From Coniochaeta sp. PMI_546 (lineage: Eukaryota > Ascomycota > Sordariomycetes > Coniochaetales > Coniochaetaceae): 64,000 nt of DNA. How positions within the stretch are numbered: the first letter of the stretch is position 1; each line of letters begins with the position of its first letter. The notes under the pieces are model-generated. The model was not told where the DNA came from, did not search any database, and was given only the letters and a program-made list of their open reading frames with translations. This document shows positions 50,898-59,427 of this stretch, one piece after another. The stretch spans positions 1,980,606-2,044,605 of the forward strand of contig MU271144.1 in assembly GCA_021432605.1 (NCBI GenBank). The letters are read 5' to 3'. Position numbers and translations under genes: made by a program.

Positions 50898-51311
50898 CTA
50901 GTCACAAGCGCGCTTCATCTTGTTGATGCAATCCGGGTCCAGTTTGACGTCGCAGGCGCGTTTGTTGATGCAGCCTGCTTCGTCTCGCTTGTCCTCTGGG
51001 GCACGCTTGTTGATGCATCCATCTGGTGAGTCGCATGCGCGCTTGTCCACACCCTCCACCTCTGCTCTTCTGTTGATGCATCCGTCCGGCGAGTCGCAGG
51101 CGCGCTTGGCGAAGTTCGCCGCCTCTTCATCTCTCTTCTTATCACATGCTCGGATCTTGTTGATACACCCGGGGTCCTTGCTGATGTCGCAGGCTCGCTT
51201 GTTGATACAGCCTGCCGTGCTTGCTTCTTCTCGCTTCTTGTCACATGCTCTCTTATAGATACAACCTCCGTCCTCTCGCTTCCGGTCACAAGCGCGCTTA
51301 TAGATGCAGCC
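50898..51311 (-). repeat. Peptide-level tandem repeats ACD...GCI(N/Y)-KR
   Basis: Encodes residues 48-184 of the precursor. All sixteen cysteines of the protein fall in the ACD and CI(N/Y) motifs. Two near-identical DNA copies coding for ACDSPDGCIN, differing mostly at synonymous positions, indicate duplication followed by selection on the peptide. Confidence 0.85.
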
Positions 51312-51452
51312 GTCCTCGCCTATATAGCGAGCCGGCAGAGATGAGCCTACATCAGCGAAGCGGGCTGCGATAGGGGCATTGGAAGCGTCCGACAGGGCTA
51401 GAGAAGGAATGGCGGACAGGAGGAGGACGACAAGGGGGGCTTTGATATACAT
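50898..51452 (-). CDS. Secreted Kex2-repeat peptide precursor (candidate RiPP or pheromone-like)
   Basis: Intronless, 184 residues, ATG at 51452. Residues 1-21 form a clean signal peptide (MYIKAPLVVLLLSAIPSLALS). A short propeptide (about 22-43) precedes repeats running to the last residue. Eight ACD tripeptides and eight (G/D)CI(N/Y) tetrapeptides alternate, mostly joined by KR. The full decapeptide ACDSPDGCIN occurs twice (118-127, 139-148); ACD-ISKDP-GCIN and ACD-VKLDP-DCIN are longer variants. KR, KKR, RKR and RR sites suit cleavage by the Golgi protease Kex2 (kexin), releasing short peptides with two cysteines that could form a disulfide loop. This layout is known from fungal alpha-type pheromones and dikaritin-type ribosomal peptides, but the WC...CW pheromone core and the aromatic dikaritin cores are absent. 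No UstYa-like oxidase or other tailoring enzyme lies next to it. Product and role are unknown. Confidence 0.88.
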   Translation of the reverse strand: MYIKAPLVVLLLSAIPSLALSDASNAPIAARFADVGSSLPARYIGEDGCIYKRACDRKREDGGCIYKRACDKKREEASTAGCINKRACDISKDPGCINKIRACDKKRDEEAANFAKRACDSPDGCINRRAEVEGVDKRACDSPDGCINKRAPEDKRDEAGCINKRACDVKLDPDCINKMKRACD

Positions 51453-52829: not shown

Positions 52830-55172
52830 TCACCTTCTCCCCCCTCTCGCTCGAGTTGCACCACCCCGGATGCGGAATCCACCACCACCACCACCACTGC
52901 CGCCGCCGCGCCCATTCTGCTGACCATTACCACGACCCTGGTTATGCTGCTGGGACGGTTTAGGCTTCCTAGGTCGCCTCCCATTGGGCTGAGGAGGCCT
53001 TGCCGGCAAACCCGGCGGAGGCCCGGGAGGCAGCGGTGGATTGCGTGCCTGTTGAGCGAGAGACGAGAAGCCACCACGGCCCTGACGGCTGACATTGATC
53101 TGGCCATTCTGCTGTTGTCTCTGAACGGGTGGACGGATGAAGCCCTCCTCGTCATCCTCATCGTCGTCTTCGAAGATTATGTGCGTACGAGGCACAATAC
53201 TCTTGCCGAAGTCCGGTCTGCCATTGGCATCATGAGCGTAAGCGTTACCGCCCGCGGCAGAGTCCCACGCGATAGCTTCCTCGTTCGAGTTGGGATCGAC
53301 GTACTGCTCCCAATTTTCCTTGCTCCAAATCTCTACGAATGCCGTCTTTGTTGGCGCAGGGTTGAGGCCACATATTGTGCCGTAATGTCCCTCGTTTCCA
53401 CAGCAGTAGCAGAATATCGGAATGTGCTTGACCTTGTGGATAGTCTCTGGGCTGGGTCGATATGTGCGGAAGAACTCTGTGCAGTCAGATTCCGTGTGCT
53501 CATTCGACGCACAGAAGGCGCACTCCATTCCCTCTCCCGGAGCTAATGCCAACTTCTCTCGACAGGTTTCTTTGACGTGGCCGAGCTGCTTACACTTGGA
53601 GCAGCGCTGTCTCGTCGGGCAACCAGGGCCCATATGCTCGGTATTTCCGCAGAAGCGGCAATTGGCTTCAGGGCAAGAATGGCTGCTGTGGCCGAAAGTG
53701 GCACATGATATGCAGAACACCTGATCGTCAGCGATACCGGGATAATACCGCTCGCGGAAGGCCTTCTCGTCCGCGTCCTCCATCTTCATATGCCCTTGGA
53801 GATCCTCTGTATGCTCTGATATCTCGCCTGATGACTTGCTTGATCGTGAGTTCTCCTGCGAGACTTCTGGCATGGAGGATGTCGCGTCTGCTTCTATGTC
53901 CGGCACAGCAGGTTCGAGCGCAGTGCTCGCCACTCCATTGACTCCAGGTCTCTCGTCTTTATCAACCGCGCCTTCTGCCTTGGAACGTGTTGCAGGCACA
54001 CCTGGCTCGGAAAGAGGGGGCATGGGCGACATACTCTCTCCTTGAGCTAGGTTATGCTCAATCGTTGAGACAAGAAGGGGAAATTTGTCTTTGCTCCTGT
54101 AGTCCAATAGCGGAAGTCCTGCTTTCTTTTTCCATTCCTTGCCCACCTGCCACCGACCGTAGCCATCTTGCAATACTGAGAACACGCGTTTAGGATCACG
54201 GATCACTTCCAAGTGCTTCTCGTCATTGTTGAGAGCAATGAAATCCTGCACCCACTGCTCAAATTTGAACTGCCAAGTACGGCTTTCGTCGAAACCCCAT
54301 TCAGGACCTGGAGGGCTGGGCAGTTGCCATGTCTGACCACAGAACTTGTAACGCCGATTCCTTTGCTTGCGAGACACGGCCTGCTGGTTGTTCGGTTCTT
54401 CTTTGACATCGGCTGGCGCGAGCTGCTGTGTGCCATTAGCGGCAGCCGCCGCAGTTGCAGCTGCAGCCTCTGCAGCCTTTTTTGCTCGAGCGCGTCGACC
54501 TTTCTTTGGAAGCGGAGCTGCTTCAGCCGGTCCAGAGGATGGCTGCTCACCTGCCACGGTCGCGGCGGCCGCTCCAGCTTCTGCGGCCTTCTTGGCTGCT
54601 TGAGCCCGAGCTTGTCGAATTTCACTCGGCAGCCACTCTTCCTCATCTGCAGCAGCTGCAGCTTGCCTCTCTGCTCGACGCCGTTTCTTGGCGGCCGATT
54701 TTGATAAAGGAGCTTCAGCTATAGGAGGATCCTGCGCTGCGGTAGTGACTGAGGATGTTTCTTCTTCTTGATTGGTAGGAACTGTGACCTGCTTTGATAT
54801 GGCACTAGTGGCTCTAGAACCAAACGAGGTTCGGAGACCTGCCGGTTTCACTCCCGCGTTCCACCCGAGATGATGTGGAGGAGGAGTGGGTGCTGGACTG
54901 GAAGTCTCTCGTGAGTTGACCTTCGAATCCATGTCAGGGACTTCTCCATCATCGAGTTCGACCTGAAGGTGCTCGTCGTTCAGTTGAACCGTCCGTCTCT
55001 TCTTAGACGGTGGCTGCTGAATCTCATCAGTGTCTAGCTTTTCAGCGAGCTCGCTGGGCTCACTCCCACTCCTGCCGCGTTTGTTGTCGGAAGCCATGTC
55101 GAGTTGACCGGCCTCATGTTGTGAGTCTTGAGGCGTCCTGCTGACCCAACCAGTCAAGGTTTGTTGATCCAT
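52830..55172 (-). CDS. AIR1/2-like zinc-knuckle RNA-binding protein
   Basis: Intronless, 780 residues from the ATG at 55172; the open frame extends farther upstream only from a TTG. A second ATG at 55097 (MASDNK) is also possible. Five CX2CX4HX4C knuckles are visible in the middle: CISCATFGHSSHSC, CRFCGNTEHMGPGC, CSKCKQLGHVKETC, CAFCASNEHTESDC and CYCCGNEGHYGTIC. In yeast Air1/Air2 such an array binds RNA and the Trf4/5 poly(A) polymerase in the nuclear TRAMP exosome-adaptor complex (family knowledge). Upstream is a conserved-looking globular block (FCGQTWQLPSPPGPEWGF... DGYGRWQVGKEW), flanked by Ala/Lys-rich basic helices. The C-terminus is Pro-rich then Gly/Arg-rich (RGG-like), typical of RNA binding. 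The protein is far longer than yeast Air proteins, as expected for filamentous fungi. Confidence 0.85.
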   Translation of the reverse strand: MDQQTLTGWVSRTPQDSQHEAGQLDMASDNKRGRSGSEPSELAEKLDTDEIQQPPSKKRRTVQLNDEHLQVELDDGEVPDMDSKVNSRETSSPAPTPPPHHLGWNAGVKPAGLRTSFGSRATSAISKQVTVPTNQEEETSSVTTAAQDPPIAEAPLSKSAAKKRRRAERQAAAAADEEEWLPSEIRQARAQAAKKAAEAGAAAATVAGEQPSSGPAEAAPLPKKGRRARAKKAAEAAAATAAAAANGTQQLAPADVKEEPNNQQAVSRKQRNRRYKFCGQTWQLPSPPGPEWGFDESRTWQFKFEQWVQDFIALNNDEKHLEVIRDPKRVFSVLQDGYGRWQVGKEWKKKAGLPLLDYRSKDKFPLLVSTIEHNLAQGESMSPMPPLSEPGVPATRSKAEGAVDKDERPGVNGVASTALEPAVPDIEADATSSMPEVSQENSRSSKSSGEISEHTEDLQGHMKMEDADEKAFRERYYPGIADDQVFCISCATFGHSSHSCPEANCRFCGNTEHMGPGCPTRQRCSKCKQLGHVKETCREKLALAPGEGMECAFCASNEHTESDCTEFFRTYRPSPETIHKVKHIPIFCYCCGNEGHYGTICGLNPAPTKTAFVEIWSKENWEQYVDPNSNEEAIAWDSAAGGNAYAHDANGRPDFGKSIVPRTHIIFEDDDEDDEEGFIRPPVQRQQQNGQINVSRQGRGGFSSLAQQARNPPLPPGPPPGLPARPPQPNGRRPRKPKPSQQHNQGRGNGQQNGRGGGSGGGGGGFRIRGGATRARGGRR

Positions 55173-56475
55173 AGGAGTAGAGGGTGTTTTCCCAACTTGA
55201 ATTGATACCTTCGAGAGTTGTGGGTCCCAAAGACAAACTTTGTGGGTTTCAGTGACGGTTATGGGATGCGTGTGATAATCTGAGGTACCAAGGCGAAGCC
55301 TCGAGACGCGTTTGAAAATCTGAAAAGTCTCGTCATATGAAACCCGCAAGAAGGTTCGAAGTGGGCAAATTCAGCTTCAAAGGTTCCGAAGTTTATAGCA
55401 TCACACGTGAAAGATGTCGATGATCCAATATACTTGAACGTAGGATCAATGTAGATCTTAGTTCATGTTTCCATCTGGAAACGAAGTTTGAGATTGAACT
55501 CGCCTTCTTTTACCTTTGTAAGACGATGGTACTGCACCAAAGGTCGGGTAGGTAGAAGGCAGATTTCGAGGTGGGTCCTACTTTAGGTAACAGTAGTAGT
55601 AGCGAGCGAGACGAGTTCGGCCGTGCTTTTGCCGGTGGCTTTGTGCAGGGGTAGAGGCCACGTTCTAGATTTTGGATTGGTAGCTGTCTGTTAGGGTGAA
55701 ATCATAGTGACTTACTTCATTGCTATGTAACGTACCGCAGGCGAAGTACTGTTCAGCTAGTGCCATCTTGTCGACATCGGAAATGCATCAAACTCCACTG
55801 GCGTCGTCACGAGCCTCTCTGGGCTTCCGGACTAAGCTGGTTGAATCTCGTTTCCCCTTGCCTTTCACGTCTCTCCCACGACCTCAACGAAGCAACTCCC
55901 CAGAGCAGCTCAGGGCAGGCCGTCGAGCAGAAAGGCATTATTCTACTTGCATTCTTTGTCACTCGTTCAGTGAAGTGCGGTTTTCGGGTCAAACGCGGAA
56001 TCACGGCTTTTGCCCTGTTTCGTTTTAGTTTTTTTTGTTTAAACTTCGCGGCCACTACATCGCTTCAACCGATTTCGCTGCGGACCCCAACATCTACTGC
56101 AGAACTCAAGCTTTCCGCCGTCCTCCGATACGCCCGAACAACTTCGTCACCGGGCCTATCGACGAGAATAGTCAGACAAGGACAGTTATTGCTGTCGTCT
56201 AACTTACACACACGGCAACCGTCACGATCGTCTGAGGCTGTAGACTGCAAAAGTCCTTGGGCGTCCCCCTTTTCTCCGTGTGACATCATCTCGACACCGC
56301 ACCTCTCAACAGCAGCGAAGCCTTTCTGGCTCGACCGCTCTCGCGTCCCACCGCGAACTCCATAACGGCAGTCCTTGTTAATACCGTCAAGCTGTCTTCC
56401 CCAATCCTTATCCAGCGTACCGTCTCGTACGACCCGGGCGCAAACGGTCCGCGTCGAGAGAGCGCATACAACTCC
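55173..56475. promoter_or_regulatory. Divergent promoter region, zinc-knuckle gene and ORM1
   Basis: 1.3 kb between two divergent ATGs. The stretch directly upstream of ORM1 (about 55990-56475) is pyrimidine-rich on the plus strand and may be a long 5' UTR. Short ORFs here are not convincing, although some could act as upstream ORFs. Confidence 0.45.
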
Positions 56476-57171: not shown

Positions 57172-57930
57172 TTGCATGGATCGCGTTCTGGCGTTTGTGG
57201 GTTTTGCTTTTGGGAACGCCGGAAGTTGCGAGGTTTGGTCAGCGAGCATCATGTGTAAGGGAACCGATAGCATTGGATGAAGGACGAAAATAGAAGAGCA
57301 GAGGTCGAGATCGCCATCTAGCAGGACTTTCAAAGTTAAATATATGGTCATCGGTGCGTTTCGAGTTCCACATTCTTCCACGCTATCTTGTCCGTCTGAT
57401 CTTGTCCCGGAGAGACCTGTGCTCTAAACCCTTTCTCACATGCCCCGTCGTGCTGTGGGCATGACCGATCCTGACGGTAGGATTGAAAATAGGATAGGAT
57501 CGACTGACACGCTGCGGTAGTCATCGCTCAGATTTCGCCGACCGCTATAAGGCCTCAGTGGCGTATGTCAAGCGGGGCGCTGTCGTGTTTGAGTTCGTCA
57601 CTATCCGCATCGACATCTTTGACGATGATGCTGCACTTGCATCTTGTCCAAGGACATGCACATGTCGGCGAGCTTCTACAATTAGGAGAGTTAACATTCA
57701 CTAAAAAAAAGCTTGTGACCTGGCTTGAAACCCGCTTCTTTGAGGGGTTGGTCGTATTTAACGGCTATGAGCTGCTCTGCTCTCCCCCCTTCCTCTTTCT
57801 ACAGTGTTCACACTTGTTGCACATATCTCAGAGTCTCAGCTGCACCAACTGCTCACCAAAAAAGACTGTCTTGTCACCTCTACTTGAACTACTCTTCCAC
57901 GAACACAAGTCACCTTCAAGAAAGATTACA
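57172..57930. other. Intergenic: promoter of the GPI-repeat protein gene
   Basis: 760 bp. The frame of the next gene stays open upstream from 57565, but that extension has no conserved feature and would bury the signal peptide, so I treat it as 5' UTR. No other gene is supported. Confidence 0.5.
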
Positions 57931-59427
57931 ATGGTTGCAAAAACAATCCTCCTAGCTTCGGCGCTTGCCGCGCGTACCCTGGCCCGGCCACACAATGATC
58001 CTCACTCCCTAGTCGGCGCCAGGGACGAGAAGGCCGATCTCGAAGCCGCAGCCCTGGCCAGCTGGCCTCCCATCATCGTCGGTGCCGTCCAATACGGCGG
58101 TGGCGAGAAGAAGGAAGAGGCAGCTTACGTCAAGTTGACCGAGAGCACAACCAACAAGGAAGCCGGGAAGATCTTCGGAGATAAGTCTTTCGGCGGGTCA
58201 ATTCCGAAGAAGAGCTCTTCGTCCAAGTTCTCCGAGGAGACGATCTCTGCCTCTGCCTATGGTACTTATGGTGGCGGGTTCCCAGCTGAGAAGACCTCTT
58301 CCAATGGCAAGGGTCACAGCTCCAAGCTTGCGTCGAAGACGAGCTCTGCTTCCAAAGAAGAGAAGACTTCATATCATGGTGGTTATGTCGGTGAGTCTGC
58401 TTCAATGAAAGGCAGCCCATCATCGAAGGAGAGTTCGGAGAAGGAGAAGGCTTACACAACTGAAAACCCAGGTCTTGAGGACCAACTTCATACACCCGGG
58501 ACAGAAAAGGGTCCTATCAAGGGTTCGAAGGACGAGCAGGATAAGAAATTGGAGGTAGAGCAAGAGAAGACTAAGGAGCAGTACCACGGTGCTGAATATA
58601 GTGCCTCCAGTGGCGAGGCTACCGAGTTCAAGCAGTCGAAGGGATCCAAGGGTCAGCAAGGCTCTGAAAGCAACTATGGCCAGAACAGCTATGGTGTAAC
58701 CTCGGATGAAGAGCAATTCAAGACCCAGAATGAGTCCAAGGAGCAACACAAGTATGGGTCTGAGAACAACTACGGTCAGAGCAGCTACGGTACTAGCTCA
58801 AAGAACGAGAAACCTGTGGCGTCAACTGTGTCTAATGAGCAACCCAAACCTCAAAAAGACTATGGTCAGTACAGTTATGGAGCTACATCTAAGGAAGAGC
58901 CGTCCAAAGAGCAAAAACAGGCCCAGGAGAACTATGGCCAAAACAGCTATGGTGCTGTCACCGGTGAGGAGCAGTTCAAGGAGAAGCACGAGGAATATCA
59001 AGACCAATCAGCCGAAGAGCATAAGCAGGTGCACTATGGCAGTGCCAAGGAGGCGGAGGAGTGCCAGGAGGATTCGGCTGAGGCCGACAAACAGCAGAAG
59101 GGGAATCAACACAAGCAAGGGGCGCAGTACGAAGAGAGTGATGAGAAAAATCATCACCATGAGCATCACAAGCTGGAAGACCATGAGAACCACCAGGACC
59201 AGCAGCAAGCTGAGGAGACTGAGCCAGAGGGATACGCTGATGAGACATCCGGTAGCGGTAATTACTCTGCCGTGGAGAGCACAGCGTCCACCGAGGACAA
59301 GGCCATTGAGACTGATGAGGAGATGAAGCCTAGCTACGTCCAGGTTGCCGGTTCGAACTCTGTGTCCGTCAAGACAACCCTGGCCCTGCTGGTTGGCGTT
59401 GCTTCAGCCATAGCTCTTCTGAGTTAA
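57931..59427 (+). CDS. GPI-anchored cell-surface protein with YGQNSYG repeats
   Basis: Intronless, 498 residues from the ATG at 57931 (ACAATGGTT context). Residues 1-18 (MVAKTILLASALAARTLA) form a signal peptide. The last 20 residues (about 479-498) are hydrophobic after AGSNS, a typical GPI attachment signal. The mature part is hydrophilic, rich in Lys, Glu, Gln and Ser, and includes four copies of a YGQ(N/S/Y)SYG module (NYGQNSYGV, NYGQSSYGT, DYGQYSYGA, NYGQNSYGA) each followed by an acidic or Lys/Gln-rich spacer. A His-rich stretch (NHHHEHHKLEDHENHQD) comes later. Almost no cysteine is present. The layout suggests a wall-linked, disordered surface protein; the Tyr/Gly/Gln modules resemble low-complexity assembly-prone sequence (inference). 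I recognise no named family. The ATG at 57565 would add 122 residues without conserved features. Confidence 0.8.
   Translation: MVAKTILLASALAARTLARPHNDPHSLVGARDEKADLEAAALASWPPIIVGAVQYGGGEKKEEAAYVKLTESTTNKEAGKIFGDKSFGGSIPKKSSSSKFSEETISASAYGTYGGGFPAEKTSSNGKGHSSKLASKTSSASKEEKTSYHGGYVGESASMKGSPSSKESSEKEKAYTTENPGLEDQLHTPGTEKGPIKGSKDEQDKKLEVEQEKTKEQYHGAEYSASSGEATEFKQSKGSKGQQGSESNYGQNSYGVTSDEEQFKTQNESKEQHKYGSENNYGQSSYGTSSKNEKPVASTVSNEQPKPQKDYGQYSYGATSKEEPSKEQKQAQENYGQNSYGAVTGEEQFKEKHEEYQDQSAEEHKQVHYGSAKEAEECQEDSAEADKQQKGNQHKQGAQYEESDEKNHHHEHHKLEDHENHQDQQQAEETEPEGYADETSGSGNYSAVESTASTEDKAIETDEEMKPSYVQVAGSNSVSVKTTLALLVGVASAIALLS

Follow-up and report, generated by a model that had tools for sequence, protein, structure and literature searches.

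A 64,000-nucleotide stretch of the genome of the fungus Coniochaeta sp. PMI_546 (contig MU271144.1, positions 1,980,606 to 2,044,605; hereafter the window) carries at 50898-51452 on its minus strand an intact ATG-to-stop open reading frame for a protein of 184 residues. We read this gene, with a probability of about 0.55, as encoding a secreted, Kex2-processed repeat protein that releases very short cysteine-looped peptides acting outside the cell. Beyond residue 20 the protein holds 12 KR pairs, against a mean of 2.0 in shuffles of the same residues, and 13 pairs if RR is counted with KR, against a shuffle mean of 3.8; none of 5000 shuffles of the protein's own residues, counted in the same way after residue 20, reached 13. 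Its first 20 residues resemble a signal peptide, and in all five members of the family described below the 12-residue stretch of highest hydrophobicity begins at residue 7, with a mean hydropathy of 2.2-2.6 compared with at most 1.04 anywhere past residue 20. Each of the window protein's 16 cysteines belongs to one of two motifs, eight to R-A-C-D and eight to C-I-N/Y. The original prediction, made from the DNA letters, of a signal peptide followed by Lys-Arg-bounded repeats with every cysteine in an ACD or CI(N/Y) motif, agrees with these results, in which the start is signal-peptide-like. Division at the KR and RR sites gives 14 fragments with net charges, after trimming, of -3 to 0. The protein contains no tryptophan and ends in KRACD, without a CAAX box.

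The arrangement of the cysteines was examined by assigning each to a CD-type ([ATS]-C-[DN]) or a CI-type (C-[IVFML]) and taking consecutive pairs, here called dyads, from the first cysteine onward. One cysteine of each type is found in all 40 dyads of the five proteins (window protein 8/8, P0001 8/8, P0002 6/6, P0003 4/4 and P0004 14/14), counts that reflect a unit kept and copied rather than independent events because the proteins are related. The motifs alone account for 38 of the 40; in P0004, 2 of 28 cysteines (in CAN and CTV) belong to neither class and were assigned to CI by default. In the other pairing register, mixed pairs number 5/7, 5/7, 3/5, 2/3 and 9/13 for the same proteins in the same order. 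Cysteines lie 4-8 residues apart within dyads (n = 40) and 7-20 apart between them (n = 35 gaps), so that the two ranges touch at 7-8.

The dyads are of two kinds. Type A (n = 26) mostly reads C-I-x-K..R-[AT]-C-D, has an arginine within the loop in every case and a KR or RR within it in 19, and frequently occurs in tandem at distances of 7-9 residues. Type B (n = 14) reads [AT]-C-D..C-I, with rings such as ACDSPDGCIN; a dibasic-x-Cys sequence stands immediately ahead of the loop in 12 of the 14, and an arginine lies inside it in one. A single ACD..GCIN core had been proposed as the repeating unit, and this gives way to the two kinds of dyad: ACDSPDGCIN is present, but in exact form only twice, and six of the eight window dyads are of the other kind. 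The extra KR said to split some units is found in five of these six type A dyads, the remaining one having IR. What is unusual in this protein, a probable Kex2-processed repeat protein (KEP), is that candidate Kex2 sites lie within the cysteine loops of one kind of dyad and outside those of the other. The gene and its elements, the dyads being numbered in order along the protein, are as follows.

50898..51452, minus strand: whole precursor gene, 184 residues plus stop, a single open frame.
51393..51452, minus strand: signal-peptide-like start, residues 1-20, MYIKAPLVVLLLSAIPSLAL; contains the hydrophobic 12-mer and is by eye the best-conserved part of the alignment.
51288..51308, minus strand: type A dyad 1, CIYKRAC, residues 49-55, from the dyad count.
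51243..51263, minus strand: type A dyad 2, CIYKRAC, residues 64-70, from the dyad count.
51189..51209, minus strand: type A dyad 3, CINKRAC, residues 82-88, from the dyad count.
51144..51167, minus strand: type A dyad 4, CINKIRAC, residues 96-103, with IR in place of KR, from the dyad count and the alignment.
51072..51101, minus strand: type B dyad 5, first copy of ACDSPDGCIN, residues 118-127, after AKR, from the dyad count and the copy comparison.
51009..51038, minus strand: type B dyad 6, second copy of ACDSPDGCIN, residues 139-148, after DKR, from the dyad count and the copy comparison.
50952..50972, minus strand: type A dyad 7, CINKRAC, residues 161-167, from the dyad count.
50904..50930, minus strand: type A dyad 8, CINKMKRAC, residues 175-183, C-terminal (the protein ends KRACD), from the dyad count.

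The two ACDSPDGCIN copies differ at four synonymous and no non-synonymous positions, and the eight RACD copies give proportions of synonymous and non-synonymous differences (pS and pN) of 0.80 and 0.02, pN being biased low for both motifs because the copies were selected by their amino acids. These values allow us to say safely that, as DNA, the repeats have existed for a long time and that the motif has been kept.

Protein database searches yielded four homologues, giving a family of five sequences: P0001 (198 residues); P0002 (169 residues), the 'hypothetical protein' NKR19_g1108 of Coniochaeta hoffmannii and the only named homologue; P0003 (130 residues, from a 4.4-kb contig); and P0004 (333 residues, from a 2.7-kb contig). 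None of the five matches Pfam at the curated cut-off, and sub-threshold matches were obtained only for P0003 and P0004. The leader changes little across the family; repeat number and repeat order differ between members. The observed dibasic count was reached by none of 5000 shuffles for P0001 and P0004, by 10 for P0002 and by 240 for P0003. At the position of window dyad 4 the alignment places IR or VR in three of the four homologues and KR in P0004. Like the window protein, P0001 and P0002 carry a type A dyad at the C terminus, in their case with KGKRTCD, and P0002 has acidic spacers such as EETEGVDKR between its cores. Residues 142-333 of P0004 consist of tandem modules of the DCIDKAKRACDKKRD type, modelled as helices of moderate confidence, with inter-dyad gaps mainly of 7-8 or 17-20 residues. 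When the 33.5-Mb, 24-contig genome was searched with the window protein the only match was to itself, and both matches of P0004 fell inside the window precursor gene. As far as these searches go, the sequences appear to define a conserved, lineage-restricted and undescribed family that is single-copy in the window genome.

In the scheme that we propose, the signal peptide would direct the precursor into the endoplasmic reticulum (ER), adjacent cysteines would pair as CI-CD dyads to close small loops, and in the late Golgi Kex2 would cut behind KR or RR and Kex1 would remove the basic residues left at the ends; the products would be very short peptides, acidic or neutral in charge. The P-domain typical of Kex2 (PF01483) has one match in the genome. 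Type B dyads would yield ring peptides such as ACDSPDGCIN. Type A dyads with KR inside the loop would yield two short chains held by one disulfide or, alternatively, a tight loop that shields its KR and resists cutting. Disulfides normally form in the ER. Yeast Kex2 is located mainly in the late trans-Golgi network (PMC8528282). Disulfide formation would therefore precede Kex2, and type A loops would be either nicked or resistant. Isoleucine is listed among the alternative P2 residues for Kex2 (PMC8528282), and we infer that cleavage is weaker at IR than at KR. One precursor might then mature into two peptide classes, closed rings where the Kex2 site lies outside the loop and nicked two-chain mini-peptides where it lies inside, with IR-for-KR exchanges setting which loops stay closed; we put this forward tentatively and think it rather doubtful. 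If true, it would amount to a Kex2-based, insulin-like two-chain processing in miniature, for which the portions of the KEP papers covered here hold no counterpart, and proteolysis inside a loop closed by a disulfide would give one short gene a further, second means of diversifying its secreted peptides. The scheme makes a precise prediction for mass spectrometry, namely oxidised ACDSPDGCIN at [M+H]+ 992.3448 (994.3605 for its reduced form) together with disulfide-linked pairs from the type A dyads, for example EDGGCIY with ACD.

Secretion, processing, disulfides, expression and function are all read from the sequence in this scheme, and several points weigh against it. A dibasic site is absent from 7 of the 26 type A loops and from the upstream side of 2 of the 14 type B loops, so that conserved cleavage does not extend to all repeats. 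Both of the latter belong to P0003, which has three dibasic sites past residue 20. Loss of KR sites and cysteines in homologues had been named as grounds for giving up the original prediction: all four homologues retain the cysteine dyads and the majority of the dibasic sites are still present, but P0003 departs from the pattern at both its type B loops and shows a weak dibasic excess. The variable loop length of 4-8 residues fits a strict receptor ligand poorly, and an XA or XP dipeptide of the STE13 type follows only 1 of the 13 dibasic sites of the window protein.

The structure models bear on the main competing explanation, an intact secreted or wall-bound protein assembled from small modules closed by disulfides, either helical hairpins or loops, with its KR sites mostly uncut. 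On this reading the arginine ahead of [AT]CD would serve structure or binding within each loop, as in surface proteins with tandem disulfide loops such as BAD-1 of Blastomyces. AlphaFold gave no folded structure for the window protein (mean predicted local distance difference test score, pLDDT, of 40.3), which is at most weak support for our scheme because only four sequences were aligned. For P0004 the model, at a pLDDT of 55.6 and a predicted template modelling score of 0.21 overall, placed a series of helices over repeats of the CIDKAKRACD type with block-mean pLDDT values of up to 76, a result that also counts against our scheme. Two cysteines eight residues apart within one helix cannot close a disulfide; if the P0004 helices are real, the disulfides would therefore run between adjacent helices, and the protein might remain in one piece. 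Comparison with PDB folds gave no meaningful match. An intact protein is favoured too by the loop arginine, which each of the 26 type A dyads keeps, including those without a dibasic pair, and by the frequent tandem spacing of these dyads. We regard this explanation as unlikely on balance, while giving it more credit than the other identities considered below.

A processed precursor of short peptides, our preferred interpretation, is also the design of the sexual alpha-pheromones, and the signal-peptide-like start, the repeats delimited by KR and the pair of cysteines in each core would suit such an identity. An ordinary alpha-pheromone locus with seven WCL(T/V)(K/P)GEPCW cores lies elsewhere in the genome (C8:980692-981466), however, as does STE2 (on C19, with STE3 on C3), and the window protein lacks both tryptophan and, at 12 of 13 dibasic sites, the STE13 signature. 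We reject the alpha-pheromone identity as extremely improbable, and the earlier statement that no WC..CW core is present holds. The C8 locus itself comprises two open reading frames in different frames, with three and four cores, and may be a tandem pair of precursor genes or a single gene interrupted by an intron. The h-type pheromone identity (HPP1) was discarded likewise, the window protein having CI(N/Y) instead of (LI)GC(TS)VM and ending in KRACD rather than a CAAX box.

A dikaritin-type precursor, that is, one for a ribosomally synthesised and post-translationally modified peptide with cores that enzymes of the UstYa family cyclise, would share the layout seen here, and the genome has 34 UstYa (PF11807, DUF3328) matches, 31 of them above the curated cut-off. 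None of the 34 lies in the window, however, and the nearest on the contig is about 429 kb away, in support of the original prediction, which saw no aromatic dikaritin-type core; ACDSPDGCIN contains no aromatic residue, and the near neighbours are a leukotriene-A4-hydrolase-type peptidase gene and, by eye, a zinc-knuckle-like gene. We consider this identity very unlikely. Elsewhere the UstYa matches form groups, for example at C4:567-574 kb and C1:2345-2357 kb, which suggests several dikaritin-type clusters in the genome.

The peptidase, of the M1 family and identified by Pfam, is encoded convergently with the precursor, its stop codon being 393 bases away by eye. Upstream on the same strand as the precursor, the gene at 52830-55370 (minus) encodes several CCHC zinc-knuckle-like motifs seen by eye and gave no Pfam match at 1e-3; its product looks Air1/2-like. 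Further along, a stop-to-stop frame of 639 residues at 57508-59427 (plus), also without a Pfam match at 1e-3, shows by eye repeated YGQNSYG-like units, a signal-like stretch behind an internal methionine and a hydrophobic C terminus resembling that of a glycosylphosphatidylinositol-anchored protein.

If released, the peptides would most likely work outside the cell, either as a signal specific to the lineage or in contacts with neighbours, and not in mating as the alpha-pheromone. A narrower view, compatible with our scheme, assigns them to interaction (microbial antagonism or an effect on a host) instead of signalling within the fungus, and we consider this role possible but less likely than not. 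Typical antimicrobial peptides are cationic, unlike the window fragments with their neutral to negative charge. The small number of lineage-restricted sequences, with varied cores beneath a little-changed leader, is in keeping with such a role, as is a report in which kep knockouts of Coprinopsis showed no phenotype that could be detected and the authors propose a part in relations with the biotic environment (PMC9769878).

Among known systems the nearest are the KEPs, of which 1193 were reported in 226 species (PMC6339444). Another survey counted 7878 across 1345 out of 1461 strains, sorted into 838 types plus 2560 stand-alone proteins, and lists Coniochaeta in the pheromone type G-2 and in type G-8 (PMC7329392). 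Fungal KEPs number in the thousands and their products are mostly unknown (PMC7329392, PMC9769878); both Coprinopsis and edible mushrooms have yielded KEP-derived peptides (PMC9769878). New types are frequent in this class. The window protein resembles KEPs in its signal-peptide-like start, many KR or RR sites, short repeated units and lack of a known domain, and ACDSPDGCIN, at ten residues, lies within their 9-24-residue class. The published criteria require four or more fragments bounded by KR/RR sites (PMC6339444), where the window protein has 14, and three or more similar repeats over at least 15% of the protein, where four of its fragments hold CD..[GD]CIN and cover about 22% (about 10 x 4 of 184 residues), as judged by motif and by hand, unlike the published pipelines (FIMO, PMC6339444; 40-residue seeds, PMC7329392). 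The family differs from KEPs in its two kinds of cysteine dyad, with a dibasic site inside most type A loops. The motifs named in the available survey text (EDYXI, DADAATXYV, YVW, SPPHKT, QKLKVD and XSDW) match none here, and that text contains no CD..GCI motif, though the family may be listed in supplementary tables (PMC6339444, PMC7329392); the words 'cysteine' and 'disulfide' are absent from the main text of PMC9769878.

Other systems share parts of this design. Ascomycete alpha-pheromone precursors are secreted, as is predicted here, and have repeats delimited by KR with a pair of cysteines in each core, but the window protein has no WC..CW core and little STE13 signature. Dikaritin precursors (ustiloxin, phomopsin) combine a signal peptide with KR-bounded cores, but ACDSPDGCIN is without an aromatic residue and the window without a UstYa match. 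The Trichoderma HPP1 precursor has Kex2 sites and cysteine-containing repeats, of the form (LI)GC(TS)VM and with a CAAX end, whereas here the motifs are CI(N/Q/Y/D) and R-[AT]CD and the end is KRACD (PMC3068285). Plant alpha-hairpinins derive several cysteine modules from one precursor, and their helix-loop-helix is one possible fold here, but their C-X3-C..C-X3-C pattern contrasts with C-X(4-8)-C in 40 of 40 dyads (PMC7191063); no sequence relation turned up, and no search was aimed at one. Blastomyces BAD-1 is a fungal surface protein in which numerous loops closed by disulfides stand in tandem, comparable to the layout predicted here, but its loops have 17 residues with WxxWxxW, whereas the loops described here have fewer residues, and dibasic sites either flank or split them (PMC3708853). 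The 'undescribed system' of the original prediction is therefore retained in part: to judge from the sequences, the five proteins are probably best filed as an undescribed, lineage-restricted family inside the known class of Kex2-processed repeat proteins.
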